Source: Hyalella azteca (lineage: Eukaryota; Arthropoda; Malacostraca; Amphipoda; Hyalellidae). Taken from it: 64,000 bases of DNA. Positions 10,335 to 63,784 of the stretch are shown here, piece by piece (the first letter of the stretch is position 1; every line of letters starts with the position of its first letter). Position numbers and translations under genes: made by a program. The stretch lies in assembly GCF_000764305.2 (NCBI RefSeq), contig NW_025936561.1, positions 15,301-79,300 of the forward strand. Direction: 5' to 3'. The notes under the pieces are model-generated. The model saw only the letters and a list, made by a program, of their open reading frames with translations, was not told the origin of the DNA and did not search any database.

Positions 10335-10363
10335 ATAACTCCTCCCTCTATGCTCAGCGACCC

Positions 10364-10636: not shown

Positions 10637-10751
10637 GTACCTACTTTATTATTCTGCCCTTTGTCTGTAAATTTAGGTTTTTTAACGTCTGTGTTTTTTT
10701 ATTAACTCCAAACTAAATTTCTGCATTTATCTGTGTTCTAGATTTATCAAA

Positions 10752-33762: not shown

Positions 33763-33763
33763 N
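33763..33763. other. Single ambiguous base (N), likely contig join
   Basis: The only N in the window. It lies between two coding fragments that do not belong to one protein, near a sequencing-adapter motif; probably a scaffold or consensus join. Confidence 0.7.
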
Positions 33764-34304: not shown

Positions 34305-35455
34305 ATCACTCCCCATTTGCTAACTATGACATTTTCCTCAAATTTGTCATATGCATATGTAACTAGAAGAGTTCTACTACAATTTACCAAAACCTGGAGT
34401 TATTTTACCAAAAAATAAAAAAATTGGAGGGGGTTCTATGACAGGCTTTAAATAATAGCTCTTTTTTTGTGGGTCACATTATTCATTTTTTAACCTATTA
34501 GATATGCATAATTTTATTATCTTTCTATTGTGTTACGTAGCCTCAGTATTAGGCCTTTAATGCCCATTGACAAAATTTTTCTATGTCAAATAGTTTTTGA
34601 GTTTTGGAGGTTTTTGTTGAAAAAACTAAAAGGGGTCTAAGTTACCCTGGGAGTCTAAGTTACCCCATTTTACGGTATAGCATTTCTTCTGTATCTGTAG
34701 GCCTACAGGCCTACAGGCTTGTAATTTTGCACCATTTTAATTGGGTCAAGTGAATTCACTGTAACATAAAAAGACCTTAAAAAAATGTACCTACATGAAA
34801 CAGATAGGAATATTTTAGTGACAACCATCATATTTTTTGTAGAAATAAATCATAGTTTAGGTTATCTACTTTTCATTCTATGTTGCCCAGTGCACAATTC
34901 TATCTATAACATTCTTTGCACAATTTTGTGGCCACTGATGATGCATTAATTTTTTGTTAAGTGAATTTTTTTTGCTGAGTGAGGTAAATGTAATCAAAAT
35001 TCTTTGTTGCTATACATAAATGGGTTTTTAGGGGTGTCCTGTAATACCCTGGGGGGGGGGTGTTTCTTATAACCCAGTCTTGTGGAAGTGGCTGCTGTTT
35101 TAATTTTTGATTGAGATATGAAAATTCCAGCAATGAAGTTTTAAAGCCAACACTAATCTGCTACTTTTTTTCCAAACAAAATATTTTAATACTACAAATA
35201 TTATTTTACTACAGACCTTAGCAGAAGTACCTTTTCAAGATATCACTTTTCAACATTGTTTTCAGGGATTTTCAGAGCTAGTAAATGTATGATTCCTTAA
35301 CTTCCTTTATGCTACATAGGTAGCAAAAATGTTGAAGTTTATGTCACTATTTTTAGTTATGCAATATTTCAATTGGGTTTACTGCTATTATATTTTTATG
35401 CCGTGGTGGACTATCCTGATTTACCCCGCCCATCCCTTATTACCCTGTTTAATGG

Positions 35456-35847: not shown

Positions 35848-38800
35848 CGGGCATCCTTGCTTTGCTGGATGAGCCAGAAGCTGAGCTTCAAGTCTTTGCT
35901 CTGGAGAGGCTCAATGAGATCATTGATGTCTTCTGGCCTGAGATTGCTGATTCAGTTCAGAAAATGTAAGTATTGTTCACATGAATATAATTTTTAGATA
36001 GCTTGCTTAGGACAAGTCAATATTTGGCCTTGATGCAGCATTGTGTAGGGCACATAGCAAATTGCATTGGCATTGTCAAACTCACTTTCCATTCCAGTCA
36101 ACCAGTTTTTAACAAAGTAATTTCAGTAGTAAAATATTAAGTTGTGTCCTAAATTGTTACCAGATTCATTTATTTGTAGTTAAATTTCACTAACGAGGCT
36201 TAGAGATGATAAAAAAATTTTTTACCTAGGACCAATGATGAATTAGCTTCACTGTTATTCCTGTTGACTGGAATATTTTGACATTCTTGTATATATATAT
36301 AATCCATCTGATATTGATTCAACACTTGTACACCTCCTAGTAGGACATACAGTACTGGTACTTCTCTTATGGAACTTACAAATTGGATTTAGCTTATAAT
36401 TGGAAAATATTTTATCACTAACATATTAAGGAACTTGAAAGCATTTGAAGCATGAACATCCATGGCCTGGGCTAGTCATGCACTATTAATGTAGGCATCA
36501 TCAAGGTTAGACTACTGCATCTTTTGGAATCTAGTGTAAGCAGTGCTTTTCTCCTGCTTATTTATTTTTATTGCAGCTCTTTTTTTTTATATAAACTGAA
36601 CCTACTTTTTAATATTAATTAGACTTTATTCTCTCCATTAGTTTTTTGCTATAAATTTGATTGTAAACTACCTCAATTTATTTGAAAATTTTGCTGCAGA
36701 AAATGTCGAATTATTCAGTATTTCATTATTTAGTAATTTAGCATGTAGTAATTTTTGCATTGTATTTAACAATACTAGGATTTCCTACTGAGAAGCTATG
36801 AAGTTATTCTGCCTCTGCCTGTTTTGCCCCAGTTTCAATACCTGCCTTTTTTTTACTGTGAACAGTTTTAAATAATGGAGGAACATTGGAACATGGTGTA
36901 TAACTTAGGTCCTCTGACACTCATCTACCTACATACAATTTTTGAAACACAGCTGGCACAGATATGGAACTTAGGAAATGATGAAATTTTAAATTGTAAA
37001 AAATGTCATGCAAATATAGTATGTTAATAAACATTAATATAGAATATGTGTACTGATATTAATTTATTCATTTTTTGTACAGTGAAGCACTGCAAGAAAA
37101 TGAGACCTTTGCAAAGCGGGAATTGGCTGCCCTTGTTGTGTCAAAAGTCTACTTCCATCTTGGCTCCTACTTGGACTCCCTTAACTTTGCTCTGCGATCT
37201 GGCTCTCTGCTCTCAAAGGATCCCAACACTCTCTACATCGACACTATCAAAGGTATTATTGCTGCTCAGGATCCCAACACTACATCAACACTATCAAAGG
37301 TATTATTGCTGATCAGGATCCCAACACTACATCGACACTATCAAAGGTATTATTGCTGCTCAGGATCCCAACACTACATCAACACTATCAAAGGTATTAT
37401 TGCTGCCCAGGATCCCAACACTACATCAACACTATCAAAGGTATTATTGCTGATCAGGATCCCAACACTACATCAACACTATCAAAAGTATTATTGCTAC
37501 TCAGGATCCCAACACACTCTACATCAACACTATCAAAGGTATTATTGCTGCTCAGGATCCCAACACACTCTACATCAACACTATCAAAGGTATTATTGCT
37601 GCTCAGGATCCCAACACATTCTACATCGACAGTAAGAAAGGTATTGATAATGTCAAAAGAACTATAGTGTCAATTTGGTTGGGTCAATAATTTGGGTTGC
37701 ATGAGATCCAATTATAAAGGCCATTGTAACAGTGAATTTCTGTAAATCACAGAATTGTCTTTTTTGATTGTAAGATCAAAAGTATACTAGTAAGAATGGT
37801 TTCATAATATCAGGACTAAAAGATTATGTAGCTGAGATAATGCATTGTTTTATCTTGAGGCTATTTGCAAAAAAATATTTTTGAAAAGTAAAACTCAATA
37901 CCACCTCTTAAAGTACCTACCTAACTGTGCATTAAGTTCTAAGTTGACAATGGTTGTGTCCGACAGTTTTCCTTGTACCATGCTTTCTGTAAATTTTCTG
38001 CCAGCAGTAGTCAGCTTGTATCTGATCCATTGGTAAATATTGCAGTCAATGCCATCGACCACTATGTTGGGCTGCGGAGGGACGCAGAGAAGATGGACCC
38101 AAGACTTGAGGCGTTGCTGAATGGCTTGTTTGAACACAGCCTGCAGGAGCACCAGTATAGACACGCACTTGGTATTGCCATCGAGACCCAGCGGATGGAC
38201 TGGTTCAGTCAAGCCATTGCAGCTTCGGTGCGTGCACAGAACATTAACAATGTCTCTGGGTTGGGACTGAACTTATCCCAAGCTCTGCTTAAACTAGAAT
38301 TTTGCCTTAACTGCTGTGATTCTCTGTGTAATTCCACCCTAGAAATTTTCAGCGCTCATCAAGTTTCACTACCTTTTAGCACCAATGCTGTTGCAATAGT
38401 AGTTTTTGAAAACAAACTTGACAAATGATGCTCCTGATTGTCAACCGCTAACAATCAAACGTTTCAAAATAGCACCTGCACATGGGTTGCTCATTGGGAT
38501 AAGAGTATATGCCTAGTAGTGTTTTTTTTAATATTCAGTGCACAGCATTTAAATATTAATAGCTTTATTTGTCTTCTGCTCAGATTTTAATTTCATAGTT
38601 GAACATGATTTCTATTAATGTAGCACTATCATATGATATTAAAAATAAGCAGATCAGTTTTTTGTTTGTTTGATTTTTTGTACTTTGGAGACATGTATAG
38701 AGAGACTCCGTGCATGATTTTTTGCATATTCCGTATTGCTCTATTGAAGGCTACTGATGTTCTGCCAAGAATCAATGCATTGGCTTTACAGGACGACCGC

Positions 38801-41800
38801 GTGGGCAGCATGCAGTACAGCTACCGCATGGCCATGCAGTATGTAGAGCAGAAACTCTTCAGAGATACTGTGCTGGAGGAGCTGGTTCGCCTCTACCAGA
38901 AAGACACTCATAGGCCTGACTACGTTAATATGTGCCAGTGCCTCATTCATCTCGACAGACCTTCTCACATTGCCACTATACTCGACTCCCTTATTAAAGA
39001 TGACTCCCTTAAAACTGCAGCCATGGTGAGTTTTTTTCAATTTTACAGTTAATTATATATCTTCTTGATGAACAGCAACTCCTTTCTACTTGTAAGCTTC
39101 TTGCAATTTAGGATCAACTATTGGTAAACTTTGGCACTTGGTATAAAACCTATTGGTATGTGTTTCTTCATCTGGAATGAAAATACTTGAATGTACGTCA
39201 CAGACTTGAAAAAAGTGTATAATTTGTTGTACTCTGCAAACAGGACAACGAGTTGATGGCATACCAGATTGGTTTTGATCTTTATGAGAGCGCAACACAG
39301 GACTTGCTGTGCCAAATACACAGAGAGCTCTGCGCTACTGCCCCTGTACCATCTCTGATCAAGGCTATGCAGCACCAGGTACGTGACTACACACTAAAAT
39401 ATCTCTGCCCTACTGCCCCTGTACCGTCTCTGATCAAGGCTATGCAGCACCAGGTACGTGACTACACACTAAAATATCTCTGCGCTACTGCTCCTGTACC
39501 ATCTCTGATCAAGGCTATGCAGCACCAGGTACGTGACTACACAGTAACACATCTCTGCGCTACTGCCCCTGTACCATCTCTGATCAAGGCTATGCAGCAC
39601 CAGGTACGTGACTACACAGTAACACATCTCTGCGCTACTGCTCCTGTACCGTTCGTTCACAAATTTGATTGCATTCTATGGTTTGTTTTTTGTTATATTT
39701 TTGTTAGATTACTAAGATGATATTCTAGTATAATATTGAAAACTTGTAAATTAAGAAAGCTTATTTTAAGAGACCTCAGTTTATGTTAAGGTTATATTGT
39801 TGGGATAATTACATTTATAATGTGCCACAATTTTTTACAAATATGTTATCTAACGTGGATATCACATCACTACACCAGTTATAAGACTACCCTAAAGGCC
39901 TCTACACTTTTTTGACTTTGCTATGCCACTCAATATGCTGGACCAACCAAAATTTGGAGGCCATTGGTATTTTCCCCATAAATCAAGCGATTATATATTA
40001 ATCAAGGCCCATAGCTTACAGTTCGTACCTATTGCAGATTTACAGCTACCGAGAGGTGTGTGTTGAAGCGTGTTAATTCACCTTAAATGCCTCGACATGC
40101 ATGCATCTTTTTTGATACAAGAATACTGTACAGTTGATCCTTATTTAAAAGCTCGTGTTGCATAACTAGAGCCATGGAGCTCTAAGGTTGAGGGTATCAG
40201 AAGCCCTTGATTATTTGACATCAGCTACTATGACTTCAGTTCCATTATCTGAGGCAGGGAACTGAAAACCGGGCTGTTGGAGCGTTGCTGTGCCTTTAAG
40301 GCCAATCAAACCTTTTACGCAAAACATGAATCATCCAATGCCAGGAACGTGTCGAGAAAGCTGGTTTTTATTTTTTTTTTTTGGGCGAAAAACCTTACAA
40401 AACAATAAAAAAAGTATATAAAAAATTGAATGACTTATTTTTCAAAAAAATTGCTGCACTTAATACCTGTACCTTATTGTGCTTCAAATTTTCTATGTAT
40501 ACTGCAAGCTTATTCCACAATTCATAGTCACCCATTCCTAAGCAGCAGTAATGCGAGCCCCGTAGCGTTAACCTCGTTATAGTAGGATGATATGTGTGCC
40601 CCCATAGGGACCCTCACCTTAAGTGGTTGCTTTGCCTTATGTCTCATATTGCTTCACTTGTACTCAGGAGCCTAGGAAAGGAAAAGATGGCGATGATGAC
40701 GGTGAGGACAAGAAGGAAGACGAGGAAGAAGAAGCAATGGAAGCCGAGAACCTGGCTTCAAAGGATGAAGCGGAAGGAGATGTCGCGTTACCGGAGGAAG
40801 AGAAATTATCTGATAAAGTTGACACAGCCTCTGCTGACCTGAAGTTGCTCGAGGATTTGGTGAGTGTTAACGCTAGATTATGTAGAGGGCAATCAAACAA
40901 TTGATTGGTCTGTCATCTGAGAGAGTTCTGCGCATTATTTTCCATTTAAACGATTGAATGAATTGCAAGGCCATCCTTTGTAAGATGCAGCTTAATATTT
41001 CTTTTCATTGAATCAAATCACCTGGAACTACAGTCACTATTCTGTCCACATGTATTTTCATTCTGTCCATATGTATTGGATTTTCATTTCTGTTCTGTTG
41101 AATGCATTTTTCAGAGCCCCGAAGAGAAAATTCATCAAAGCCGCTGCGAGAAAATGTCTCAGATTTTATCAGGGGAGGCAACGATCCAGCAACACCTGCA
41201 GTTCCTGATCAGCAACAACCACAGTGACCTGCTGATCTTGCGCCACACCAAGGACGCGGTGCGGGCCTCAGTGTGCCACACAGCCACCGTCATCGCCAAC
41301 GGCTTCATGCACTGCGGCACCACATCGGACCAGTTCCTCAGGGAGAACCTGGACTGGCTCTCTCGAGCCACCAATTGGGCTAAGATGACCGCCACGGCGT
41401 CCCTGGGAGTCATCCATCGTGGACACGAGAAGGAGGCCCTCACGCTCATGCAGGTGCGATTGATTTCAATTTTGGCTTAACACGTTGACTACGTATTGGT
41501 ACATATGCGTACCACGAAATGTATTTCTCCTGGTACATAATTCAGGGTTGCCAGATGGCCTAAAAAACGGCCAATTAAGTCCGTGAACAAAAAGGCCAAA
41601 AAAGCCTATAACTCAATATATACTAGTATATTTGTAGGTTCCGGTGTAAAAATTCAATTTTTTTAGTTAATTAGGAAGCGCCCCTTACAACCCCAATCAT
41701 AAATTTTAGCCGACCACCTAAATTGAAAAAACTAAATCGCGGAATTTGTCCGATAAAAAAAGAAAGTCAGGCAACCCTGTTCCATAATAGTACTAGAAAA

Positions 41801-44800
41801 ATGAAACAAAAGTACAAGATGAACCAATCGTAGTCAACGTGTTAACAGTGCACGTATACAGTATCTTATTTTTGCTTATTTTTTCAGTAATGTGGTCGGT
41901 GTTTTTTTTTGGAAGTGTAAATACCAACTTTCAAGCATGCAGGAGCCAACTTATAAGCATGCATCACCGCGATCAGCCGCTATGCAGTCCGATTTATCTC
42001 CCGTGGTATTCCTTCACTGAGTCTTCACGCTATTACTCCACTCGTGAATAAGATAGCTGTTTGAATTTCTAAATGCTATTCCAGCTATTTATTTTAAACT
42101 GTTGATACTTTGATAATAGTTGTGAACTTTTTATTATAACTGCCAATGATGCTTGTGTAAAGTAGGCAACTAATGCAGTTTTGAGATGTTACGTTGGTTT
42201 TAATATTCATTCTCTACTGACCGGCATGCCGCTCTTTACTGAATCAGAATCGTTGTGGTAGATGAAAACGAACTGAACTAGTAGGAACTGGTAACGAGGA
42301 ATGTGTTGACCATGGTTGAATTACATAAGGTTGACCCACGAGGATTTCCGTATTTCAGTTCAGCTTTCTTGTTACGTCACTGAGATCGAGAAACGTAAAC
42401 AATCCCGTCATTCCTATTACGGATTGGTTGACTGGTTTGTCACATTTCGGTGATTGGTTAATGCCCGTGACGTCACTGAGATCAGTGACGTCACAGACGA
42501 ACAACAAACTACATCCGCAAAAATGAGCTTCTCATGGGTCAACCTTATAGTACTTCAACCATGGTGTTGACAGCCGTGCTCAACCTCGCGGCTGCGGGCC
42601 GATGATACGGGGTAGGGGTGAGAGCTCACGGAAAAGCAAGTGGAAAAAGATGGCGGCCGCCTGGACACTGCTTGTTTCCTTAAAGCGCTCCAGTCACAGA
42701 AATGTGTTGATTGTGACGAGGCGATTGAGGGCATATGATGACTGAAATACAACGGGCCTCATTTTACAGCATAGTCCTGCTCATGGTGTCTCACAGTTCA
42801 TGCCTCGCGGCCGTACTTTCTTGAGAAAAATATTTGTTAATACAGAATGCCCGCGATACTTCGCTGGTTTACTTCCCGGATTTTTTCTAAATACTCATAT
42901 CGCACATATTGTTTTTCATAGTAAATTCTGAATTCGCCTTAATTCCTTCAAAATGTAAAACATGTAAGTGCTGAATTTTTGTGGAGTTTAGAACATCGTT
43001 GAAAGTTTTCACTTGTGTGGAATTAGTTGTAGAATGATTTGAAGGTTTAAGATTGTTAGCATTGTAAGATGGAGGAAACTTTCGTATACGTGCTTCTTTA
43101 GACTTGACAACGTAGTCAGTAACCTTAATTGTGTTGGAAATCTTCACTTAGAAGAGAATGAGGAATGTTCTAAAATGCACTGACTTACAGCTATACAAGA
43201 TACATAGATACTAACACAGACACCACGTTTTTCTTATGACGTATTTCAGGGAGCGTAGCATTCGAGGGAACACTGTATGTAACTGTTGAATTATTTTTAC
43301 GTTGATCACACAGATACGTTCAAGGATCCTAAGCACAAAAGATTTACAGATGCTATCTCTTGCTTTTATTTCTGGTTTGAAACTTTTGCCTCTGGTAGAG
43401 ACGGCAATAAATAATGATGGTAAATATTGCAGGCATATCTGCCCCGCGAGAGCAACAGCCCAGGCTATGTGGAGAGTGGCTCGCTCTACGCCCTTGGTCT
43501 GATCCACGCGAACCACGGAGGTGCCATCATTGACTACCTCCTGACGCAGACGAAGGAGACCAACAGCGAGGTTGTGAGGCATGGAGGTTGTCTGGGTCTC
43601 GGTCTGGCAGCGCTGGGCACGCAGCGCGTCGACATCTACGAGCAGCTGCACAAGTGCCTCCTTACTGACGACGCGGTCACTGGCGAGGGCGCTGGTCTTG
43701 CCATGGGACTCGTCATGATGGGCTCCAACCACACCAGAGTGATCAGGGGTGAGTGGTGTTAGCTGGGGTGAGTGGCGTGTTGGCAGGGGTGAGTGGTGTT
43801 AGCTGGGGTGAGTGGTGTGATCAGGGGTAAGTGGTGTTAGCAGGGATGAGTGGTGTGTTGGCAGGGGTGAGTTGTGTGATCAGGGGTGAGTGGTGTGATC
43901 AGGAGTGAGTGGTGTGATCAGGGGTGAGTGGTGTTGGCAGGGGTGAGTGGTGCGTGGTGTGATCAGGGGTGAGTGGTGTTAGCAGGGGTGAGTGGTGTGT
44001 TGGCAGGGGTGAGTGGTGTGATCAGGGGTGAGTGGCGTTAGCAGGGGTGAGTGGTGTGATCAGGGGTGAGTGGTGTGATCAGGGGTGAGTGGTGTGTTAG
44101 CAGGGGTGAGTGATGTGTTGGCAGGGGTGAGTGGTGTGTTGGCAGGGGTGAGTGGTGTGTTAGCAAGGGTGAGTGGTGTGATCAGGGGTGAGTGGTGTGA
44201 TCATGGGGTGAGTGGTGTGATCATGGGTGAGTGGTGTTGGCAGGGGTGAGTGGTGTTGGCAGGGGTGAGTGGTGTTAGCAGGCGTGAGTGGTGTGTGATC
44301 AGGGGTGAGTGGTGTGATAGGAGGTTAGTTTTGTGTTAGCAGGGGTGAGTGGTGTGATAGGAGATTAGTTTTGTTTTAGCAGGGGTGAGTGGTGTGTTAG
44401 CAGGGGTGAGTGGTGTGATAAGGGGTGAGTGGTGTGATCAGGGGTAAGTGGTGTGATCAGGGATGAGTGGTGTTAGCAGGGGTGAGTGGTGTTAGCAGGG
44501 GTAAGTGGTGTGATCAGGGGTAAGTGGTGTGATCAGGGGTGAGTGGTGTGATCAGGGGTGAGTGGTGTGATCAGGGGTGAGTGGTGTGATCAGGGGTGAG
44601 TGGTGTTAGCAGGGGTAAGTAGTGTGATCAGGGGTGAGTGGTGTTAGCAGGAGTGAGTGGTGTGTTGGCAGGGGTGAGTGGTGTGTTGGCAGGGGTGAGT
44701 GGTGTGATCAGAGGTGAGTGGCGTTAGCAGGGGTGAGTGGTGTGATCAGGGGTGAGTGGTGTGTGATCAGGGGTGAGTGGTGTATGATCAGGGGTGAGTG

Positions 44801-47800
44801 GTGTGTGATCAGGGGTGAGTGGTGTGTGATCAGCGGTGAGTGGTGTGTGATCAGGGGTGAGTGGTGTGATCAGGGTGAGTGGTGTGATCAGGGGTGAGTG
44901 GTGTGATCAGGGTGGGTGGTGTTAGCAGGATGATGTTGCCGGCACCGTGGGAGAGGGTGTGGTCTGAAATGCTCTTACTTCACGTCTCTGGCCGCTGTAT
45001 TGTAAATTTTGTCATTTACTTGATGAAAGAATAACAGCGGTAAGTATAAATTATACTGGATTATGGATTGTTCGTTAACAGCGGAGTAGTTACATGGTAA
45101 AGAATTAGTTGAATTATAAAATTGAAAGATTTAAATTAATGGTGTAAATCAAAGAGTATTTTTAGGAGCACACGAGGAGCAAGCAGTAACTTTAGGAGAA
45201 ATTAATACCTAATCAATACACTTGCCATGACATGTTGAATGTACATAAAATACGTAGTTTCCTTTATAAAAATAAATAGAACGCAGCATTCATGAGTTCA
45301 ATTTAGCGATGAAGTCAAGGCAGTGAAGACAATAGTTTACTGACTAGCCTAATGTATCTATGTCACAATTTAATAAAATATTCACAATTCAATAGGAATT
45401 GACTCACCAAAAATACAAATTAGAAAACTTTTTTTAGAATCGAATGAATGAAAAGCAATTCATGAGAACCAGTAAAAGTAAAACGGTGCAGTAAATATTG
45501 AAATAGTTTGGCTAGCATTAGATGCAACAGTAATAATTACAGCTGGTAGAATGGAGTGACAGTTAACTGGCAGTGAATAAGTTTAAATCGTTACAGAAGT
45601 TTGGTAAATGAACAAAACATTTTAAGTTCAAACCAAGTTAACTCATGGGCAATTATTGTACCATTCACAACTTATATTTTGCTATTAAAAGGCCCTACCT
45701 ATGAACTCACATAAGTATCAGGTCCTTTTAAGGCAAACCACCGACATAAAGTAGACAGCCTGTTAAAGGATACTGCGGACAAGTACTAACACTCGGATAG
45801 CCAGAGTAAGAAAACCAATCGGGGTTAGAAATGAAATTAACATGATTATGAAAATACAGATTTTATTTGTGTCGAGAAAGTCATGGTACCCCAGGTTATA
45901 GTGTGTTGAGAATTTTATTTACTTTCCTATAAATAAACAGAAATCTGTTTAAATAATTTTTTTGTGATGTCAAAATGACGGCTAATTTATATAATGTTCT
46001 CAGAAATGGTCGAACACGCTAGGGAAACTAGCCACGAGAAGATAACTCGTGGCCTTGCTGAGGGTATCGCCATAGCCATGTATGGTCAGCAGGATCAGGC
46101 TGAGGACCTCATCACCGAACTGCTGGCTGATAAGAATGCCATCCTGCGGCGTTGTGGCATGTACACCATAGCCATGGCGTACTGTGGCACAGCTTCTACG
46201 TCTGCCATGCGGCGCCTTCTACACGTCGCGGTCTCTGACGTAGACAATGACGTGCGCCGAGCGGCGGTTGAGGCCCTCGGCTTCCTGCTGTTCAGGTCGC
46301 CTGATCAGGTAAAAAATATATAACTCAGTACTCTCTGCAGTGAGTGACAGAGCGAGCATTTTCTCGTCGACGGAAATGTGAAGTCATGGACAGACGGACG
46401 GACATGACGAGCACAATAGCGCCTTTTTTCCATAAACGAGAAAATGCGCTAACAATCAAGGCTGCGTTCGTTGATGTGTCAATAAGTGCCTCGTGACAGT
46501 TGTATGCCGTCGTTGTTGCTGTTAGCTATTAGTAAGTATTGAAGATCCGGCAGCACCGTGAGCTACAGACGGGCGGCATTCTTTCTCATGGTTGTCTCTC
46601 AGTGGGTTAGCCGTATCTTGACTTGTTCATGAGACGACATTCTAACATTTTTATTTCTTCTTTCTTTAATTCGAAACTATAAAAATAAACAAATAATCTC
46701 ACACTAGTACGGCCAGACACTTTTTTTTAGAAATTTGTATCAGTCGAAAGGCAACATTCTGCCTTTTTTTATAAAAATCCAGCTATTTATTCATTTTTCT
46801 TGAATTTGAAACTAGAAAAACAAACAAATAATCTCACACTTCTACGGCCAGACACTTGAATTTTTTTTTTAAATTTGTGTCGGTCGAAGGAGAGTGTAAA
46901 CAAGGTTGTAAGTTACCCAGTTGTCGCTGTCATGAGGTCATGCCCTCCATGAGCATGAGTAAGCCGAAATGTTCCTACATCGGGTGCCTGAACATCAAGC
47001 AGCTAATAACTAAGGTTGCATAGTCATGAGAGGGAGGATGATGAATCAGAACTGAACGTGGAATGCACGGCAGAGTCCCGAACATTGCGCATTCAGCACA
47101 AACGCGTTCCCGAACATTTGCGCGTTCAGTATAAATATTGCGCGTGCTATTTTCCAGCTCTGGGATCAGATCCCTCAAGTGCTTGTCAATTCTGACTAAT
47201 AACGTATGCTTTCTCTTCGTTCATTGCAGTAATGCTAGTAGGGCTTGTATTATTGGTACTAGTCGGCTTGTACTATTACTACCTGTCTCAAGTTGCATAT
47301 CTTAGAAACATCTTTATACACCAATTACGTATAACGTGTTGTCATTAAAATTACTCACATTCCCAAATTTCTATTCTTGACACTCATTATGTGACGATAT
47401 TGATTTTTTGATGCTTATTTGGATCTCCAAAACCTATGGTATGTCTAACTGTTATCTCTGAATGCTCCACGTGGCAAGCGACGTTAGATTGATTAGATCT
47501 GAAATGCCAGTAAATGTGGCCTCAAGAATAACTAGTATAAAGGTAGTTGATGGGCAGCAATGATGTATCTTATAACTCACACCTGTATGTTGCAGGTGCC
47601 GAGCATGGTGTCGCTACTGTCGGAGTCATACAACCCCCACGTGCGCTACGGAGCGGCCATGGCGCTGGGTATTGCCTGCTCCGGCACAGGACACAAGGAG
47701 GCCCTCAATTACCTTGAGCCTCTCACCAACGATCCTGTTAACTTTGTCCGTCAAGGAGCCCTGCTGGCGTCGGCTCTCGTTCTCATACAACAAACCGAAG

Positions 47801-48690
47801 TCACGTGCACTAAAGTCAAGGATTTCAGGCAGCTTTATGCTAAAGTGGTCGCTGATAAACATGAAGATTCCATCGCTAAGTTTGGGGCGATTTTGGCGCA
47901 AGGTATCATTGATGCGGGTGGTCGCAACATGACGATCTCGTTGCAGTCCAGAACTGGCCACACGAACATGACCTCCGTTGTTGGTATGTTTGTTTTCACT
48001 CAGTTTTGGTACTGGTTCCCTCTTGCCCATTTCCTCTCCATGGCTTTCACTCCTACTTGCCTCATCGGACTGAACCATGAACTGAAAATGCCCAAGATGA
48101 ACTTCGTTTCCAATGCAAAACCATCGATGTTCGGTTATCCTGCTCCTCTCGAAGAGAAAAAGAAAGAAATCGCCGAAAAAGTCACTGCCGTGCTTTCGAT
48201 TACGGCCAAAGCCAAGAAGAAAGACGACGAAAGAAAGAGAAAAGAACATAAGGAAGAAAAAATGGATGTGGATGAAGATGCAAAAGACGACAAAGAGCCT
48301 AAAGAAAAAACCGACAAAAAAGAGACAAAGGAAAAAGATAACAAGGGTAAGAAGAAAGAGAAGGAAACCAAGGATAAAGATGCAAAGGAAATTAAGGGTG
48401 AGATCAGCAAGAAAGAAAGCGAGGAGAAGAAGAAGGAAGAGCCGAGCATGGATATACTGAACAACCCTGCGCGTGTGATGAAGCAGCAGCTTCGCGTGAT
48501 GCGCATCCCTGACAACTGCCGCTACCAGCCCGTCAAGGATGTGGGCATCGGCGGCATCATCCTGATGAGGGACAGCACCCCCGACACCAGGCAGGAGCTC
48601 GTGCAGCCTGTGCCTGCCATGGGGCCTAAGACTGAGGATGAAAACGAGCCCGAACCTCCCGAACCCTTCGAGTACATCGACGAAGATTAG
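35848..48690 (+). CDS. PSMD1: 26S proteasome non-ATPase regulatory subunit 1 (Rpn2/PSMD1)
   Basis: Exons 35848-35965, 37083-37252, 38046-38227, 38792-39025, 39244-39378, 40668-40859, 41115-41453, 43433-43748, 46004-46308, 47596-48690 (TAG) join in frame to ~1028 residues; the animal protein is about 950, and this one has longer charged segments. The protein is a base scaffold of the 19S particle, next to Rpn1/Rpn13. Visible features: N-terminal helical part ([31 protein letters not shown]), an acidic insert in exon 6, then proteasome/cyclosome repeats ([60 protein letters not shown]). [15 protein letters not shown], a long Lys/Glu-rich segment and the [11 protein letters not shown] end are diagnostic. 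The first exon (a few codons: exon 1 read starts in phase 2) is missing. Introns 2, 5 and 8 begin with arrays that repeat the donor; introns 7 holds two MITEs. Confidence 0.97.
35966..37082. other. PSMD1 intron 1 (first read)
   Basis: AT-rich intron bounded by GTAAGT and TTGTACAG. No element recognised. Confidence 0.8.
37218..37640 (+). repeat. 47-51 bp minisatellite spanning the PSMD1 exon 2 donor
   Basis: Nine units of GGATCCCAACACT...CTATCAAAGGTATTATTGCT. The first unit contains the last 35 bases of exon 2 and its donor (AAAG/GTATTA, exon end 37252). Each later unit repeats the exon tail, a donor-like AAAGGTATTA (one is AAAAGTATTA) and an AG before GATCCC that could act as an acceptor. 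Early units are 47 bp; later ones 51 bp because of an added TCTA-like insertion. Confidence 0.95.
37641..38045. other. PSMD1 intron 2, 3' part
   Basis: Unique AT-rich intron ending ATATTGCAG. Nothing else recognised. Confidence 0.7.
38228..38791. other. PSMD1 intron 3
   Basis: Starts GTGCGT, ends GCTTTACAG. Exon-like ORFs reading out of the flanking exons stop inside it. No repeat recognised. Confidence 0.7.
39328..39651 (+). repeat. 75-bp tandem array spanning the PSMD1 exon 5 donor
   Basis: Units start at 39328, 39403, 39478, 39553 and 39628 (last partial), an exact 75-bp period. Each of the first four contains the last 51 bases of exon 5 ([15 protein letters not shown]) and the donor CAG/GTACGTGAC. 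As 75 is divisible by three, the frame stays open across the array to a stop near 39718. Use of any of the four donors keeps the frame with exon 6 and adds 0, 25, 50 or 75 residues. Confidence 0.96.
39652..40667. other. PSMD1 intron 5, unique part
   Basis: AT-rich; ends TTGTACTCAG. No element recognised. Confidence 0.7.
41481..41841. mobile_element. 361-bp TTAA MITE, copy 2, in PSMD1 intron 7
   Basis: TIRs CACGTTGACTACG and CGTAGTCAACGTG are near perfect, flanked by TTAA (41477-41480, 41842-41845). It aligns along its length with 18450-18815, including GTATTTCTCC, GGCCAAAAAAGGCC-like and GGAATTTGTCC words. It lies 27 bases after the exon 7 donor. Confidence 0.9.
42308..42565. mobile_element. 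258-bp MITE with ~36-bp TIRs in PSMD1 intron 7
   Basis: The left end ACCATGGTTGAATTAC plus TAAGGTTGACCCACGAG is mirrored at the right by CTCATGGGTCAACCTTA and GTACTTCAACCATGGT. No coding content. The superfamily is not clear; a target duplication was not resolved. Confidence 0.75.
42468..42493. promoter_or_regulatory. Pair of CRE palindromes (TGACGTCA)
   Basis: Perfect TGACGTCA octamers at 42468-42475 and 42486-42493, 18 bases apart, within a near-palindrome (GTGACGTCACTGAG / ATCAGTGACGTCAC). Another near-match, TTACGTCACTGAG, lies at about 42373. TGACGTCA is the CREB/ATF site. They are carried by the MITE; regulatory use is inference. Confidence 0.5.
42566..43432. other. PSMD1 intron 7, 3' part
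   Basis: Unique intron; ends AATATTGCAG. ORFs on the minus strand at 42887-43147 and 43211-43732 are shadows or unsupported. Confidence 0.6.
43737..44937 (+). repeat. ~19-21 bp minisatellite (about 60 units) seeded on the PSMD1 exon 8 donor
   Basis: Units of GATCAGGGGTGAGTGGTGT and the variants TAGCAGGGGTGAGTGGTGT and TTGGCAGGGGTGAGTGGTGT run for 1.2 kb. The first is the end of exon 8 (GTGATCAGGG) plus its donor GTGAGT at 43749. Every unit therefore carries AGGG/GTGAGT, close to the consensus 5' splice site. Some units are GTAAGT. Downstream donors would add in-frame stops. Confidence 0.97.
44938..46003. other. PSMD1 intron 8, unique part
   Basis: AT-rich, no element recognised; ends AATGTTCTCAG. 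Confidence 0.65.
46309..47595. other. PSMD1 intron 9 with a two-copy direct repeat
   Basis: Two ~135-bp copies (about 46665-46800 and 46801-46890) share AACAAATAATCTCACACT and ACGGCCAGACACTT and T-runs. The rest is unique, ending TGTATGTTGCAG. Confidence 0.7.
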
Positions 48691-50037
48691 AAGCTGCACT
48701 TGACACTTGTATACCTTCTTGTTGATGAGAGCTGGACAAATTAACGATTGGGACAAAACTTGAAGGCAGTTTTTTGTATAATTTTTAAGTTTCTTGCTCT
48801 TAAAAGCTTTAGCGGTAGGTACGGCGCAGAAAAACCTTTTTCAGTGATGGTTGATTGGACTCCGTGCTAGGAGAAAATGAACGAACCTTCACGAAAAAAT
48901 AGTTTCTCATCTCGGCAAAAAAATTATGTACAGCATTGGATATAAATTAAACATACGTTACTAGGTCAGTTTATTTTGAATTATTTTGAAAGAGCGTCGT
49001 TCTCCTTACAATGGAAGTGCAAGGTTCAAATACTATTTGATATTTCATCGGTTATCTCACTTTCCTCCCCGGGAATCAACTCAAGTATTTGATTAGGGTG
49101 GTTATTCAAGTACTATTGGTTTAGAGCCAGTTACTGGCTGTGGAATTTATGTGAAAAAAAAAAGAATGCTTCAACGATATAATTTAAATGTCAACATTTT
49201 AAGCTGGGTTTAAGTGACATCGTTCATTCATCTGTCTGCCACTATAGTCTCTTACTCTTCGTTCTTGAGGTTTTCTGTAGTCACTAATCGACCTAAATTT
49301 AGTGAATGCGTCCAAAAAAATATGGCACCATGTGTTTGCCATGGACTAGTAAGATGCTCAATAGTATGCATTTCTAAAACAACTTCAACTTATGCGCCAC
49401 AAGTAAACGTGTGGGGCCATACTTTCAAAACTCGCTAGATGAACGTGAGTACTAAAGCTCTATTTTCTTGTCTATGATTGACAGATTTTGCTTGAAAGGC
49501 CGTCAATGATTGGCTGATGAACTTACGATCTCTTAACTTTTTTTGAAACTGGTCTTTGACTCGCTAACGACCGACTTTGGCGTAACTATGCACTAGACAA
49601 GGTCCGCTTCATACAATCGCATACGCGTAACATTATTGCTTCGGTTTACTGTTTAAATAAAAAACTCTGAAGCCCTTAGGGCTTGAGGTCGAGGCATTCA
49701 AAGGCTCGTGTAGTAGCAGGACGCAAATGAATTACGGTATATCGGTTGGCTATACACCAACGTACAATGTACGGCAGAAGCGGAATCTTTGTGTACGCCA
49801 ATGAAAATTCAATTAGCTACGCTATGAATTAAAGGAATTAGATCCTGTTGAAAATGACATTTCGAGTTTATTGAATGGAATGTCTGGAGTGATGAACGTG
49901 ATGTTAAGATTATTAACATGTAAACCACAGGGATAGGGAAGAATCCTGCAATAATAATATGCAGGGCTTGAATGAATAGTAATCGTTTATTTTCTCAAGT
50001 ACAGGATTATTTCGCGTGGCGATTGGTCAGTCTAGAA
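48691..50037. other. Intergenic tail between convergent PSMD1 and MIPEP
   Basis: Contains the PSMD1 3' untranslated region. An AATAAA at about 49656-49661 is the first clear poly(A) signal noticed on the plus strand; transcript end not proven. No ORF of note. Confidence 0.5.
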
Positions 50038-50400
50038 CAGTGATTCCCAAACTTTTGTAGGCTGGAGTCCCCGTGGCTCCCAGTGAATTCCTAGCACCCC
50101 TCACAGACGCATAATATTCACATAGCGCTTCCCACAGACAAAGAAAAAACCCTGATTTTTAATATTTTCTAAATTTCACACAATACATCCAGGAGATGTT
50201 AAAAAAATAGATCTGGGTGGAAAAAACCATCGCTGGGAGCCGTTTTAGCTGCTCATGTGTACAAATCGTCAAATAAACATTCGAACTTCTGACTTCGATT
50301 TTGGACTGCCGCTTCCTAACCGCCTCCTTCTTCGTCAGCGCCCCCTCGGATCTTTCCACAGCCCCAAAGGGGGCGGTACCGCCCACTTTGGGAACCACTG
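50038..50400. mobile_element. 363-bp hAT (Charlie-type) MITE
   Basis: Starts CAGTGATTCCCAAAC and ends TTTGGGAACCACTG, the classic CAGTGGTTCCCAAA hAT terminus. Flanks GTCTAGAA and ATCTAAAG match at 5 of 8 positions, so an eroded 8-bp duplication is possible. It sits between the two convergent genes. Confidence 0.85.
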
Positions 50401-50640
50401 ATCTAAAGCAATACTAGATTATCACATTCTTGCGCATTCCAGCTTTAGGTTGGTTGTATGCTTTCTCATAAGCATCAATAACTTGAGAGGTTGCTGATAA
50501 TAAATTCTATGGACAATTTTTACAAACAAATCACTTACGAATAAGGTAGTTATTGTATGTACTTCTTACAACAGAAGTCCTGTTTATGGAGAAGAAAGCA
50601 TCATGTCTACTGGTGGTACATGTGGATTTTAGCATCATGT

Positions 50641-53600
50641 CTACTGGTCTAGAAGTTGTCTTTTCCTGTCGAGGTCAGCCATGAGGGCGCCGGCGAGGTT
50701 GCGGGGGGTCAGGTCGCGGTGCAGGAAGTTCTCCACGAGGGTCCTGGGGGGCACGCCGCCCCCGTGCTCTAGAACCTCCCGCCTGTAGCGCTCGCCAGCG
50801 ATCCTGTCACGTGTTACCAACGGAGGTATAACATCTTTTGATGGAGTAAATGATGAGTAAAGTGTAAACTGGGCATCTAACACTACAGCTACGGCATGAT
50901 ATGTGGTGATTTGATGTCGCAGGTCCTGGCGAAATAATGAACCCAAAAGCGATATAGGAACAGCGAAATAATGAAGGCAATAGAGCAAATATGTGAACAA
51001 TATTCGCAAAATAAAATTGTGCATTGATGAAGAGCGTGAAATATTCATAATAATAATGATTTGAACTTGAGCTGTGTTCTGAAACACGAAGAATTGCGTT
51101 TTGGTGATCAAACTGCGGTGTGATCTTGATGAGATCTAAAGAGAACAGGAAAGAAGGTGCAATTCCATCGTCGAGTGGAAATTCTCAGAGAAGGACAAGA
51201 AACTTGAGAAATGAAGCGCCTGTCGAGGAAAGGTTATCCTCTGAAATTGTACCTGATTTTTTATTTGGAATATATGAAAGATACAAAATATGAGGATTGA
51301 ACAAATTTATTTGAACAATTACTGAAAAGAAACAAGAAATTGGAATACAATTGCTCACCTGGAGAAAGGATCGTCCTTGAAGTACTGCTGCCAGATCCAG
51401 GACGCAACGGACCGGCTGACGAGGTAAGCGTAATACTTGCCGCCGTAGCCGACGAAGTGACTAAACCTGTGCTGCCATGCCGTATTGGGGACGTGGGGCA
51501 GACTACAGTGCTTCTCATGCTCCTCCTGCAGCACGTCACTCGTCGTCACGCCAGACTCCCAGGGCACCGTGTTGCTGTGGTACCTCTGGTCCACGGCGGC
51601 GTAGTATACCTGCGCCAGGGGCGTCATAATCATAGGAACATTGACTGCCATAAAGGACAAACGAGAACACTCCGCCTATAACAGACTAGACGAAGCTATG
51701 CAGGAGCATATGTTCAGTCTTAAAATGCCTAGCACCTTACGGACCAGGCAATAAGGCCAGCAGCTATCTCAATCAATCGTCAGTTATGGAAAGATCGGGT
51801 TCCATAGGCCGGATCCCTTGTGAATCAAGTCACGAAAAGTACAAGAATCGGCAGCAGGCCATGGACCTATTTCTTCAGTGCCGACACTTCTATTCTATGT
51901 TGAGAGCACCTCATTCAAATGTATTAAGTGAGATGCAAAAATTGTATGAAGATGATATTAGCAGAATAAAAACATAAATTGATTCCGTATGTAATCTACT
52001 TGAGAAAATTCCATTTTTAAAAGCTGCACATTCGAAGCAAACCCAGAAAACTACAACTGCATACGCCTGTCAGTACTCAAGAACGACATTGTTAACATTG
52101 ATATTCAATGTTAACATTGATATTCAATGCTAGCAATGATATTAAATGAGATATTCAATGTTAGCAACAATTCATATCCTGCTCAACAGGACATGAATTA
52201 TTCCCAAGTGCGCGGTTTGAGTCTGTTCAATCTGAGGACCCTAACCTGCGTCTGGAGTTCACTGGAAGCGAAGACGGCTCTGCTCCTGACGAGGTTGTGG
52301 AGCAAAAGCTCGGGCACCGCGTCGCCCGTCTTGTAGTGGCGACCAAATGAGCCCAGCACGCGGGCGTCGCTCGCGAAGAACTCCATCAGTATAGAAGGAA
52401 CCTCGGCGAAATCGGTGCTGCAGCGCGTGCCCGTCACGTGCTGGTAACGCGTCCTGTGGATGTTAGGAGTGTCAACGAGGGCCGGTCACGTGCTGGTAAC
52501 GCGTCCTGTGGATGTTAGGAGTGTCAGCGAGGGCCTGTCACGTGCTGGTAACGCGTCCTGTGGGTGTTAGGAGAGTCAGTGAGTGCCCGTGACATGCTGG
52601 TAACGCGTCTTGTGGGTGTTAGGAGAGTCAGTGAGTGCCCGTGACATGCTGGTAACGCGTCCTGTGGGTGTTAGGAGAGTCAGTGAGTGCCCGTGACGTG
52701 CTGGTAACGCGTCCTGTGGGTGTTAGGAGACTCGGCGAGTGCCTGTCACGTGCTGGTAACGCGTCCTGTGGGTGTTAAGAGTAAGCAAGTAACACTTTGC
52801 TGTGTAAATTATGCCAGTGTAGGAGGCTCGGGCTCTGTCCCCTCATAAACGAAGCCCCAATTGATGATTTGGATTAGAGTTGCATCTGTGAAGAGTGAGA
52901 GTTGATTTGGGAGCGTTAGCGAGTCATGACTGCTCGACCACGATGATCCTCGGACAAGAGAAAACATCTCCAGGCTCTGGATTCAAGAAGGCTGTAAGAA
53001 GAATCATTGAAGGCTGTACGACAAAAAAGTTCATCAATTGAGAAATGTGTAGCAAATTTGATGCGAGTTATATTGTTGTTGAGGTTTATATTGATGGTTT
53101 AATGATAGTTCTCACCGCGCCATCATGGAGTGGAGCGCGTGCCCCATCTCATGAAAGAGATTCTCGACCATCCCGGGCGACAGGAGAGGAGGTCCTGACC
53201 AGGACGCCGCAGGCAGGGACAGCTGCACCACCACGCACGGCGTCTGTGCAGGGCAAGAGTCAGGCACGCGGTACAACGTACCAATAATCACAGATTGCGT
53301 CAATAAGGGCAAAAAAAATGATCTCGATTTTTGCTTTTCACGAGAGTAACGTCATATGCAAGTAAACATGACTCATGGACAAGAAAAATCTAAATAAATT
53401 ACTTTAATACGAGTGACTCAGGACTCGAGGTTATTCAGAGATGTGATAATTTATTTCGTAAAATGGAAACTTTCATGGTACGCACACTCGTAGCTGGACG
53501 GAAAATTATCAAAATAAAGCTCAATAGAGCTAACAAGCCACCAGTCTCTGGCCCTATATATTTATCAGAACAAAGTAGTCAATATTAGTTTAGGTCAGTT

Positions 53601-56600
53601 TATCACAGAAATAGCTGATTGGACCCTAACAGGACCTGGGTGGCTTGTCCAGGGCGTTGTGTGCAATGTGATTCTGGCGGGTCAGCGAGCAGTGATGGTC
53701 GTAGAACTACCAGTGGCATTAAGTGCCCGGAAAAACTGACCTATTACTCCCTCCCTTACCTAGTTGCTACTACCAGGATAGGCAATTACACAGACACATA
53801 TCAAAATGCGAATAGCTTTTAAACAGCCAGCAAAATCGAACACGTTGACCATGTAAAATCAACAAAGTGACACGGTCTCTCAGTGTCAGGCAAGTGACAC
53901 GGTCTCACAGGGTCAGGCAAGTGACACGGTCTCAAAGGGTCAGACAAGTGACACGGTCTCACAGGGTCAGGCAAGAGACACGGTCTCACAGGGTCAGGCA
54001 AGTGACACGGTCTCACAGGGTCAGGCAAGTGACACGGTCTCACAGGGTCAGGCAAGTGACACGGTCTCACAGTGTCAGGCAAGTGACACGGTCTCTCAGA
54101 GTCAGGCAAGTGACAGTCTCACAGTGACAGTCAAGTCACCTGATAGTCTCCCTGGGGCATAACTTTGCCGCCGCGGATGGTGAAGTGGCAGTCCTGGTTG
54201 GGTTTGCCAGCGCGCTCTGAGAAGTCGCAGTAAATGTGGCCGAGAAGCGAGCCGTCTTCCTCCACCACTGTAAACATAAGACATCATTACCATCACTGAC
54301 CCGTTCAATACAATACGTTACTATCGTATCCATAAACAGGAGACAACAATCAACAACCATTTCCGAGCACACCAACCTGTTGCTTAAATGCAGGTTGGGA
54401 TGTCCATGATGCTCAAGGCAATGGTTTCAGTGGCATTTTTCAACTTCATGTCCCCTTTCTATCAAGAGTCTCATTTTACTAATTAAAATATTAATAAGAT
54501 TAGATCATCTGTAATTGAGACGTAATATTCACTAGACGTGGTAAAGATTGATAGAAAAGTACTAAAATTGAATCAGCATTTACATCACGTGACAGATCAC
54601 GCGATTAAGACCTCAGTAGTGGGCGGAAGCCGTGATTCCATAAAAGGGCTGTGAACCTTAGTAAGGCCCCCAATACCGTCGCCATGTAACATTCGTTAGA
54701 GTTTCTCCGACCTAACGGTTGCCGTCTTAACCTATACCTCTATCGTATCCCTCACATATAACCACCCGGTATCAAGATAAGTTCGCTAGACAGATAATGT
54801 CTTTCTTATTCCTTAGTCAACGAATCCTGTCCTCAGGTATAAATATATAATCAGTCAGGTGTCTCTTAATATGACCGCCTGACATTAAAACAAATTATAT
54901 AAGATATTGAATGATTTTTAAGAAGTAGTTAGCACCACGATGGACAAACAAAATGGACACTTTGGACAGTTAAATAAAACATAGGTTTCTAAAAGTAGTT
55001 ATTTAACGGAGGTTTTGTTGAAGACCAGACCGTAATTCTTACTAAGAACTTTTAAAATTTGTTTACATTGATTTTGCAAATTAGCCTTTTAGTAGGGCTT
55101 AATGGTTGAAATACGGGGTTTCTAAGGGGTATTTGGTATAATGATAAGTAGTAGTAGTAGTAGAAAGGTTTGCTAGCGCTTCAGCTTTCAAGCTATTTCG
55201 CGCCGGAGGTCAAAATGTAACATCGCCAGAAGGCGAAAGGTCTCAAATTATTCATCACTCAAAAGGGGCGGAAGGTCTCAGTTGTCCAGCCCGCTGAAGC
55301 TGGCTCGAGAGAAGCAGCGTTAGCATCTCAAAGAGACGAAGTGACAAGGAGGGACAGGTGAAAAGCAGCAGAAACTAAGACACTCGAACAAGAGGTCGCT
55401 TACACGGGACGTCGGCCGCCCGCACGAGAGAGACAGAGAAGGGAAATGTAAGGTATCCTGCCTACATGATAACTTAACCCCACAACTGAGACCTACAGTC
55501 AGACACCGCGAGCTTAGCGGTGGGGCACTCAGGAACAATCCCCCTAGGAGCGCGAAATCCCATAAGACTTCTGACGAGCACAGACACACGTCAGAAGTCC
55601 CCCCCTGAGGGGGGTATAATGATAAGATATTTCAAATAAACATCACTCATCATCAAGTGAAAGGAAAGTTTTGTCGCACTTTAAATTTCAGGATTTTGGA
55701 ATGCGATGAGCGGTCACTCTACCAAACATCATCAGAAATAGACTCGATAATATTTATTTCAATTAAGCTTTACTCAAATATAGACTCGATAATATTTATT
55801 TCAATTGAGCTTTACTCAAATAATAGACTCGATAATATTTATTTCAATTAAGCTTTACTCAAATATAGACTCAATAATATTTATTTCAAATAAGCATGAC
55901 TCAAATATAGACTCAATAATATTTATTTCAAACATAAATTTATGATAACATTTATGACTCAATAACATTTATTGCGAGTTAAATGTAAGTTCTATGCTAG
56001 TTGTTCGTTTTAAAATGTTTTCCAGTAGTTCATAATACCTTAACATTAAAATAATAACCAGATAACGGGATTCACGCCTCTGAAATTTTATACATAGCAC
56101 CGTCAGGTTAAATTGCAAGTATATAGTAAACTGGACACAATATCTTAACCTTGTTAGTTGAGTTACGGTATCAATATATAATTGCAAGTATATAGTAAAC
56201 TGGATACAATATCTGAACCTTGTTAGTTAGTTGAGTTATCAAGTATATAATAGCAAGTATATAGTAAACTGGAGATGATATCTGAACCTTGTTAGTTGAG
56301 TTATCAAGTACATAATAGAAATTATATAATAAACTGGACATAATATCTGAACCTTGTTAGTTGAGTTATCAAGTATATAATTGCAAGTAAATAATAAACT
56401 GGACACAATATCTGAACCTTGTTAGTTGAGTTATCAAGTATATGATTGCAAGTAAATAATAAACTGGACACAATAGAGGCTAATAGATGACCTAACAAAC
56501 CTGTGAGCAAATGAAGGGAAGCCACAGAGGTCGGCCATGTCTCGCCGCGCTATAAGCAGACGCGACAACAGCAGCTCTTGCTGGCTGTCAGGCATTTGGT

Positions 56601-59600
56601 AGACACGATACGCGGCCTCGCGTGCTCCTTCACTTGACGAGTCTGATAGAAGTCCGTTAACTGTGATGCTGGACCCTGAGAGACTAAGACTGTCGGGAGA
56701 ATTGTTCATGGCAGTGAAGAACACACAACAATGAACATTACATTACATAGGATGATATGCATCTCAATATGCATTATTACAGAAGCCTCAAACCACAAAT
56801 TCTTGAACAGATCGCAATGCAAACAGTTGAACGCAACCAAAGAATCCCAATTGTTGCACTAGATGTCAAATACTCAACAGGAATGAAATATTTTTAACAA
56901 TGAGTCTGATTTTCAATATTATTTCACTTGAGCGTGTATGAGTTAGTTTAGTTACATTACATGTTAAGTTATCTGTACAAACCATTTGCAATACTGACTA
57001 GTTTTGCAGTTCTAGAGGTAATTGTGAACGTTCAACTTTTCTCGGTTTGTGGCAGTTGGCCATAAAATGCTGTCCCACAGCCAGGATATATTCATTCAGC
57101 TCAAATACTTTTTGGCGCTTACTGTCTTCCAAGTGGATACCTGAAAGTCAAAATTACAAAATTCACTTTATTTAGTTTGCTTTAACTATATATTCAATGA
57201 TGGCTAATAGTATAGAGAATTTGTAACAATGAATCATATTTACATCACATGAAATCAATTGAACTTGTTTATCTACAAAATTTAAATCAAAGGTCTCAGA
57301 AAATGAGAATTTATAATATATTTTGACAATAAAAATTTATTTACTTATAAATCAAAACAATGAGAGGTTCAGAGCCTTTAACGAGGCCGAGTAAAATTAA
57401 AGTTAAGAATATTTAAGCAAATGTGAAAAGGTAGTGATTTTCACACAACATGATCCCCACCTCATTCATCTCAGAGACTCACCACTTTGTTCAAAATCAA
57501 AAAGAAAAAGTCGTGCAACATGTTCATCAACTGGAGTAGTGGGTACTACATCTCCATCTTCAACAACCTTACGTAAGGCGTCATACAGCTTTCGGTTGAC
57601 ATTCAATCTGAAAATAAACACAAAATTCTAATGATAGTGAATGAAATGGTGGCCATAGGTACTAGTAGTTTAGAAGCTGTTAGCCTGATGCAAAATTAAC
57701 TAACTATTCACCAGCAAACATGGGGAAGGCCAGCATGCTTCAGCCAGCAGGTAAATATGGTGTAGGTAAATATAAACGACCCAGAAGCCATAAAATCAAG
57801 GTGACATTTCACAATTTTCCCCATGTTGATGCCAGTTGTTGCTCATCATTATCTTGAAAAAAATTTCAACATTAATCCATACCAAGTACACATGTATAAT
57901 TAGCATTAGAAGTCAAAGAACATAAGATGAATTAAATGTACATATAGGTATATCTAGTCTAATGTAATACTTGTACAACACATCCAGCAATGTACCCAAA
58001 ATAACTGACGATATTGTACTCAATACAATCATTTCCACCCAGTATTTTTCTTCACTCAATTTCAACCCAAGTATTTCACTCCTAAAGGAAATGAAATAAT
58101 TTAGTAGCAACGTGTTCCCCCAAAATATAATAAAGTACATCAATATAGGCCAACAGAATTAATTGAACAATATTACTAATTCTCTACACATCAATGCATC
58201 TGTATAACAAGTTATGAGCAAGCTAAACCTACTTCTCAACTAAAGTTCCAATAGAAAAAGCAGCATCATGAGCAGGGCATAGGTAGTGAGAGTCTGGATG
58301 AGCCAGTTGATGCATCTATATAAAAAGTTATGAGTGAGCAGAACTCACTTCTCAACTAAAGCTCCAATAGAAAAGGCAGCATCTTGAGCAGCACATTGGT
58401 AGTGAGAGTCTGGATGAGCCAGGCGCACAAATTCTGCCAGATCCGCCACACAGCAGAGGACGTTGCTTAGTTCATCAAACACCTGGAATAACTCTCTTCT
58501 GTTATTATGCTCATTGAATATATATATATACTAATCATTGAGATAAAGAAGAATTCATTATTTAATCTTTCGAAGAACATGAAATGTGCTATAATTTCAA
58601 AAATAATTCCCACAGAACTGAAAATTGAACACTTTTTTCAACACATCACTTTGTATTTGTGACTAGAAACACCTGACATTAACTTTGAGACATGTAGAAG
58701 TAAACTTTCACAAGCTGTGATGTTGTGTTCAAATATCATAACTTTCTATGATGATTTTCATTTAATCTAAGAACTGCATAAAAATGAGAGATGCAAATTC
58801 CACTTCATTGCCAGGAAGCTAAAAAATTGAAAATCCCGGGGATGCTGATTCTATTTTAAACTAATATATTACTTGAGGGATCATACATAATTTCTATAAG
58901 GCAAACTAAGACCTCTGAGTTTATATAACAAAATCAATTTTAAGGCCAAGATACATAAAAAAAAATTTAGATTTAATTTTGAAGTAGTACTGTATAGGTA
59001 GTGTTATAAGCAGTCCTTTTAGTCAAATCATTTGATTTTGTATAGGATAAAAGAATAGTATATATGAAAAAAACTATTTGACTGTTGACTGCACTATAGT
59101 AATCATTACAGTGACAGTTACTGATTATTCCACAAAGGGCATTGCTACCTCCATGATGTAAATGAACGCAGAAAAACCACAAATTTTGGTGACAGGGCCA
59201 ATATTTTTCAATACCTACCTAATTCTTGTCTAAATTCACATGCTTGCTGGAGGGTGACATTACACATGAGAGATAGTTACTGTTGATAGCCATAGATGTA
59301 ATAGCATAGACTTAAAATAAGTCTGAGGACACAGGTTTGTTTTTTTCAAACTAACATACATGTCTGATCACTTGCACAATGAAAAGTTGATAACTCGAGG
59401 ACACATGAGGATTATAAGAGAAACATAAATAAACAGAGTGATCACAAGTTGAATGAACAGAAAATAGCTCGACAGCCTAGAAAAGATTGGCATCAAATGT
59501 TACAATTAGTTGCATCATTGGAGCCAGAAATAGCCTTGCAGCCAAAAGGTTTGGTGAGGAATATATTCTTGGTATATAGCACTTCCAGACATTTCAAATG

Positions 59601-63780: not shown

Positions 63781-63784
63781 AGGA

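Follow-up and report, generated by a model that had tools for sequence, protein, structure and literature searches.

Minisatellites that carry splice junctions in the PSMD1 and MIPEP genes of Hyalella azteca, and a possible duplication bias at 5′ splice sites

The PSMD1 and MIPEP genes and their minisatellites

The stretch analysed here, referred to as the window, comprises 64,000 nt of the genome of the amphipod Hyalella azteca (contig NW_025936561.1, positions 15,301 to 79,300). Its right half is filled by two genes: PSMD1 (RPN2), which encodes a proteasome subunit on the + strand, and MIPEP, which encodes the mitochondrial intermediate peptidase on the − strand. Five minisatellites in these genes, with units of 47, 75, 19, 52 and 116 bp, have a real exon–intron junction within the repeat unit. 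PSMD1 exons P2–P11 span 35848–48690, and nine MIPEP exons were found from 58482 to 50641. Human PSMD1 and MIPEP served as guides for placing the exons by similarity, and the exons were then joined; the border of the third and fourth MIPEP exons was shifted by hand. A single open frame runs across the joined PSMD1 exons P2–P11 and another across the last five MIPEP exons. The PSMD1 joins are consistent with the proteins of Trinorchestia longiramus (90% identity) and Hirondellea gigas, and the joined MIPEP exons are 100% identical in alignment (99% in the BLASTP column) to a public H. azteca protein (P0121). By protein comparison, the exon-abutting sites fit the public H. azteca MIPEP protein and the PSMD1 of relatives. 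About 108 MIPEP residues of other malacostracans were not found in window DNA 54268–56500, and the public protein lacks them too. The exon phase mismatch from exon Md (56501–56689) to exon Mx (54140–54267) fits a loss of one or more exons between 54268 and 56500.

Arrays were detected with Tandem Repeats Finder (TRF). Three of the five junction-spanning arrays are at PSMD1 donors. The 47–51 bp array (37233–37617, + strand, ~8 units) copies the final 20 nt of exon P3 (37083–37252, donor after 37252) and the donor AAAG/GTATT. The 75 bp array (39328–39650, + strand, 4.3 units) copies the final 51 nt of exon P6 and the donor CAG/GTACGTG; this exon (39244–39378) has its donor after 39378 and three more in-frame donors downstream. 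The 19–21 bp array (43742–44929, + strand) is at the donor of exon P9 (43433–43748, donor after 43748) and consists of ~60 units, a donor-like core being present in most of them. The remaining two arrays belong to MIPEP and read on the − strand. The 52 bp array (52421–52781, 6.9 units) copies the acceptor CCACAG/GACGCG with the first 33 nt of exon Mz (52246–52453, acceptor before 52453), and the 116 bp array (58194–58422, 2 units) contains the final 74 nt of exon Ma (58349–58482, donor after 58349) and ~39 nt of intron including the donor.

The five arrays lie on the intron side, and at most one unit of each enters the exon. In the five introns concerned only one border is within the array, the opposite border lying at a distance of 334 to 1,074 nt. 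Intron gain by tandem duplication is similar in that the duplicated sequence carries splice signals. In that process, however, both splice sites of the new intron derive from the duplicated copies, whereas here one border per intron is in the array, and this candidate was rejected for the five window introns.

The initial annotation of the window had described at least five arrays containing a genuine splice junction and two more situated 10–25 bases from a donor. TRF recovered every array in that description, and together with the exon joins it bears out the first five. Of the other two, both on the − strand, the 65 bp array (56111–56475, 5.5 units) begins 25 nt into the intron after exon Md (donor after 56501), near the junction and not spanning it, and no junction-spanning match was found at this site. 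The distance does not hold for the 27 bp array (53865–54136, 10.1 units), the diverged first unit of which begins at intron base +1 of the exon Mx donor (after 54140), no exon base being matched. Counting the 27 bp case, a strong nearby intronic duplicate is present at 6 of the 36 window junctions.

Variation among the repeat units

The repeat units are not identical. All four are distinct in the 75 bp array, and several variants occur in each of the 47, 52 and 19 bp arrays. In the 47 bp array a longer form is seen in the first unit and in the final two, and the same 4 bases are missing from the five units between them, a pattern that suggests stepwise growth with the inner units as a later expansion. 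Such variation bears on the idea of an assembler error, raised in the initial annotation and taken here as an assembly or gap-filling error that copies exon edges. The assembly has flaws, as a perfect 19-nt Nextera mosaic end at 33894 and an N at 33763 demonstrate; the missing conserved MIPEP segment likewise means that there is damage nearby, to the assembly or to the gene. However, an assembler looping over one copy would not yield units that differ among themselves, and the pattern recurs on other contigs (see below), so that an error of this type is very unlikely. The unit-specific variants make the existence of the arrays credible, and less so their copy numbers, which rest on the assembly and may be wrong.

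The variants also describe the splice sites that each array offers. In the 19 bp array GTGAGT is kept in 50 of 58 units and GTAAGT in 5, giving 55 GTRAGT sites in about 1.2 kb; the first alone keeps the reading frame, and the other 54 lead to a stop codon. Frame is kept by the 1st and 4th of the 9 donor sites in the 47 bp array and by all four in the 75 bp array, where every later donor would add 25 further residues. Rows of donors might be kept by selection, as a splicing regulator or backup or as a source of protein variation, by analogy with the splice-altering variable number tandem repeat (VNTR) of human ABCA7. The four in-frame donors of the 75 bp array agree with this idea, as does the association of ABCA7 VNTR length with skipping of the next exon, described in the part of the source drawn on here (PMC5954066). 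Against it, the inner sites of the 19 and 47 bp arrays mostly lead to stop codons, and no such repeats are present in the aligned PSMD1 proteins of five relatives. Moreover, the splice cores are not significantly more conserved among units than the rest of the unit (circular-shift P 0.10, 0.31, 0.25 and 0.88), which speaks against selection for extra sites. Selective maintenance of the donor rows would therefore seem quite improbable.

The arrays have no common sequence. When 11 units were compared in 55 pairs, none of the six best pairs was clearly above shuffled sequences, one of them scoring one point more than the top result of 100 shuffles. No unit was found copied away from its home locus (E up to 1e-3) in 316 kb, that is, in the window and the sample described below. 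As the best pairs show no relation and no copies turned up elsewhere in this 316 kb, each array is most likely a separate event. An introner-like or other dispersed element was rejected, related copies at many loci not having been found in the window and sample. The initial annotation had proposed a recurrent process and not one repeat family, a view that stands given the unrelated units, the absence of copies in the 316 kb and the recurrence on other contigs. Its suggestion of R-loops is not supported as a general cause: on the coding strand only the 19 bp array is strongly G-skewed (+0.81), whereas six other arrays at or near a junction range from −0.11 to −0.38; the 42 bp array far from a junction has +0.32.

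Array placement in the window and in a sample of the assembly

Array placement in the window was compared with several simulated expectations. With the seed unit restricted to intron or single-junction positions, 0.83 junction-spanning arrays are expected among the nine of the gene region, and five are seen (P = 4e-4); if whole arrays are placed and no more than a single unit may enter an exon, the mean is 0.88 (P = 5e-4). With GC content matched, 5 of the 18 arrays in the window are junction-spanning against 0.71 expected (P = 2.8e-4). Selection that merely keeps duplications splice-neutral, another cause put forward in the initial annotation, falls short as the sole explanation, because these expectations already allow for it and the excess remains. 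Placement anywhere, exons included, takes no account of selection on coding sequence; it gives a mean of 3.36 spanning arrays, from which the five are not significantly different (P = 0.20), while the seven arrays within 30 nt of a junction give P = 0.028. None of the nine gene-region arrays is inside an exon, although unrestricted placement should put some there. The window values alone are not a test, as the window was chosen by its reader for its appearance.

The comparison of arrays with splice junctions that the initial annotation called for was run on a sample of 28 stretches of 10 kb from the same assembly (280 kb; 252 kb without N). The first 13 stretches were fixed by contig number before reading, and the other 15 extend three long contigs, the last ten having been added once the arrays, but not the genes, of the earlier ones were listed. 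The sample contains 57 arrays (0.226 per kb, 4.6% of bases). Its coding segments were ranked by codon use, and 52 junctions were placed in seven genes. Four of the 57 arrays span a junction: arrays of 42 and 28 bp at donors of a P450 gene, and arrays of 47 bp at an acceptor and 128 bp at a donor of an ACS gene. The chance expectation is 0.61 (P = 0.0032), or 0.76 when matched for GC (P = 0.0065). Pooling window and sample, 9 of 75 arrays span a junction against about 1.5 expected (P = 3e-6; GC-matched 8e-6). Since the excess is still seen in the GC-matched tests, GC content is not the explanation.

The sample genes differ in how well they are supported. Eight P450 exons join in one frame, and the joined product matches Pfam p450 at 1.3e-56; mitochondrial P450 structures align without gaps over both array-bearing joins. 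ACS exons 1 and 2 join in frame with an AMP-binding match of 6e-20. Pfam supports the AMP-binding enzyme (ACS) and a citrate synthase, and weakly a C69 peptidase (secernin); the labels neprilysin (C160) and cuticle are presumptive.

These results bear on whether chance and a striking window could account for the pattern: the genome would be rich in minisatellites, those in exons would be purged, a few would land on junctions, and the reader would have picked the most striking window. The 57 arrays in 252 kb suit this account, and so does the unrestricted placement given above; in addition, no TRF array was found at the junctions placed in the secernin-like, citrate synthase and neprilysin-like (C160) genes. 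Nevertheless, the sample was not picked for the pattern and still has four spanning arrays where 0.61–0.76 are expected (P = 0.003–0.0065), and the bias towards donors is strong, though mostly carried by window arrays. Chance is on balance unlikely.

Position within introns was analysed in 33 annotated introns (26.6 kb) with 14 arrays, the two junction-spanning ACS arrays lying outside these introns and being excluded. A junction lies no more than 30 nt away from nine of the 14 arrays (simulated mean 2.70) and no more than 100 nt away from 12 (simulated 4.80), a 19 bp array of three units (52090–52148, − strand), 97 nt from a donor, being inside the second limit and outside the first. For ten arrays there is a donor at 100 nt or less (simulated 2.65), and two are within 100 nt on the acceptor side. 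None of 3,001 simulated runs reached the observed number at 30 nt or at 100 nt, or for donors. The excess within annotated introns is mainly at donors, and this donor bias is strong, mostly on window arrays.

Other features of the window and sample

The putative mosaic end (33894–33912) sits in a 216-aa open reading frame (33749–34399, − strand) without a Pfam match and is probably leftover library adapter. Elsewhere in the window, a long palindromic element was recognized by eye at 9900–10700, with a 58 bp tandem repeat in one arm, and an 89 bp array of 8.7 copies occupies 63011–63781 with no gene identified alongside. A degenerate TTAGG-rich array at 4783–5165, which resembles the arthropod telomere repeat, has no noted sign of a nearby telomere. 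In the sample, a short duplicate of a secernin-like donor (GGTAAGTTAT) lies some 50 nt downstream of it (L022 4737–4790; C2:74737) and may represent an initial stage of the duplication process proposed below. Upstream of the acceptor of a cuticle-like exon (L019, about 9325; C2:49325, − strand) there is a diverged junction-spanning match (36 identical bases in a 50-base junction window), either an old duplicate or a paralog.

Discussion

Each array probably began as its own small tandem duplication, with 5′ splice sites as the preferred starting points, and later spread into the intron. Errors of replication or repair would duplicate 19–128 bp across or beside junctions, more often than elsewhere in the intron and mainly at donors, and the array would subsequently grow on the intron side. 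The exon-abutting site is predicted to be the one spliced, so that excision of the intron would take the copies with it and leave the protein unchanged; the copies would be tolerated because this site would be used. Selection would remove duplications that break the coding sequence, which would result in the one-sided anatomy observed. Tolerance alone should make donor-spanning copies no commoner than mid-intron ones, and a mutational bias would therefore be needed. We infer both the hot-spot mechanism and the splicing outcome from sequence.

Several points weigh against this interpretation. The exon models of the sample are our own, with 35 junctions placed by hand and 17 by splice-site score, and five candidates under the cut-off dropped. 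Neither of the two P450 exons with arrays has a Pfam match when taken individually. ACS exon 3 has an AMP-binding match of 1.6e-7 and is out of frame after exon 2, and an exon may lie between them; the ACS donor (C1:5088) is the least certain of the four sample cases and was placed with the array in view. Without it three cases are left, with a Poisson probability, calculated by hand, of about 0.02–0.04. All four come from two of the seven genes, and the sample of 252 kb is small. Six more sample arrays at most 150 bp from coding-like segments without an assigned gene were left unjudged, and these segments were not used. The position test draws nine of its 14 arrays from the window, which was chosen for its pattern. 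The lack of significant conservation of the splice cores belongs here as well. Two arrays are counter-examples: a 42 bp array of the window (55737–55931, − strand) sits mid-intron, with 569 nt to the nearest junction, and a 41 bp array is 606 nt from one. No DNA hot-spot motif was identified. Finally, the GC step is 0.194 at junction-spanning arrays, and 0.100 at other arrays compared with 0.085 for random places (p = 0.025); array placement may therefore owe something to a compositional edge.

The initial annotation knew of no named system with this pattern, a view that is not borne out, as ABCA7, CBS and other human loci display it. Reportedly IFI6 (6-16) has a minisatellite with multiple splice donors, going by a title of Turri et al. 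from 1995. Three further human examples are taken from parts of their sources. The 25 bp VNTR in intron 18 of ABCA7 ranges from about 12 to about 427 repeats, and its second unit's donor can be used and the next exon skipped (PMC5954066). Like the arrays described here it is intronic with slightly varying units, and it starts at the GT of the exon's donor, the same layout as the 27 bp array and close to that of the 19 bp array; unlike them, it is a single human locus, with documented length polymorphism and effects on splicing, whereas here several loci occur in a short stretch. Human CBS has a 31 bp VNTR, c.1444_1467+7, and the insertion c.844_845ins68, the outcome of which is splice-neutral (PMC2630376). 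Judged by its name, the VNTR unit comprises 24 nt of exon and 7 nt of intron, a similar arrangement, although both CBS variants are single human polymorphisms and ins68 has only two copies. Internal tandem repeats (mean 30 bp units, 4 copies) also alter human gene structure, some at exon–intron boundaries, with 27 intron modifications after inspection (PMC2812944). Those repeats came from comparing recent paralogs in segmental duplications, and the part of that source consulted contains neither a junction enrichment test nor a donor bias.

As in a splice-site VNTR, the unit includes the adjoining exon's donor or acceptor in five window arrays and in four sample arrays, one of them uncertain; the 27 bp array starts from intron base +1. 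The arrangement is hence of a known kind, and what is new, within the literature searched, is its rate and its preference for donors in one animal genome. We consider it possible, at somewhat less than even chances, that in H. azteca, and perhaps in amphipods more widely, a genome-wide mutational process at 5′ splice sites converts the ends of exons into minisatellites; an appreciable fraction of introns would then begin with rows of identical competing donors.

Such arrays are natural tests of how the spliceosome chooses a donor among dozens of near-identical ones, as with the 55 GTRAGT sites of PSMD1, and one human array of this type, in ABCA7, already matters for disease risk (PMC5954066, in the part drawn on). 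If the excess at donors is genome-wide, splice sites would be tied to small tandem duplication, which is a source of new repeats, of longer introns and, as the in-frame 75 bp array illustrates, of new coding repeats.

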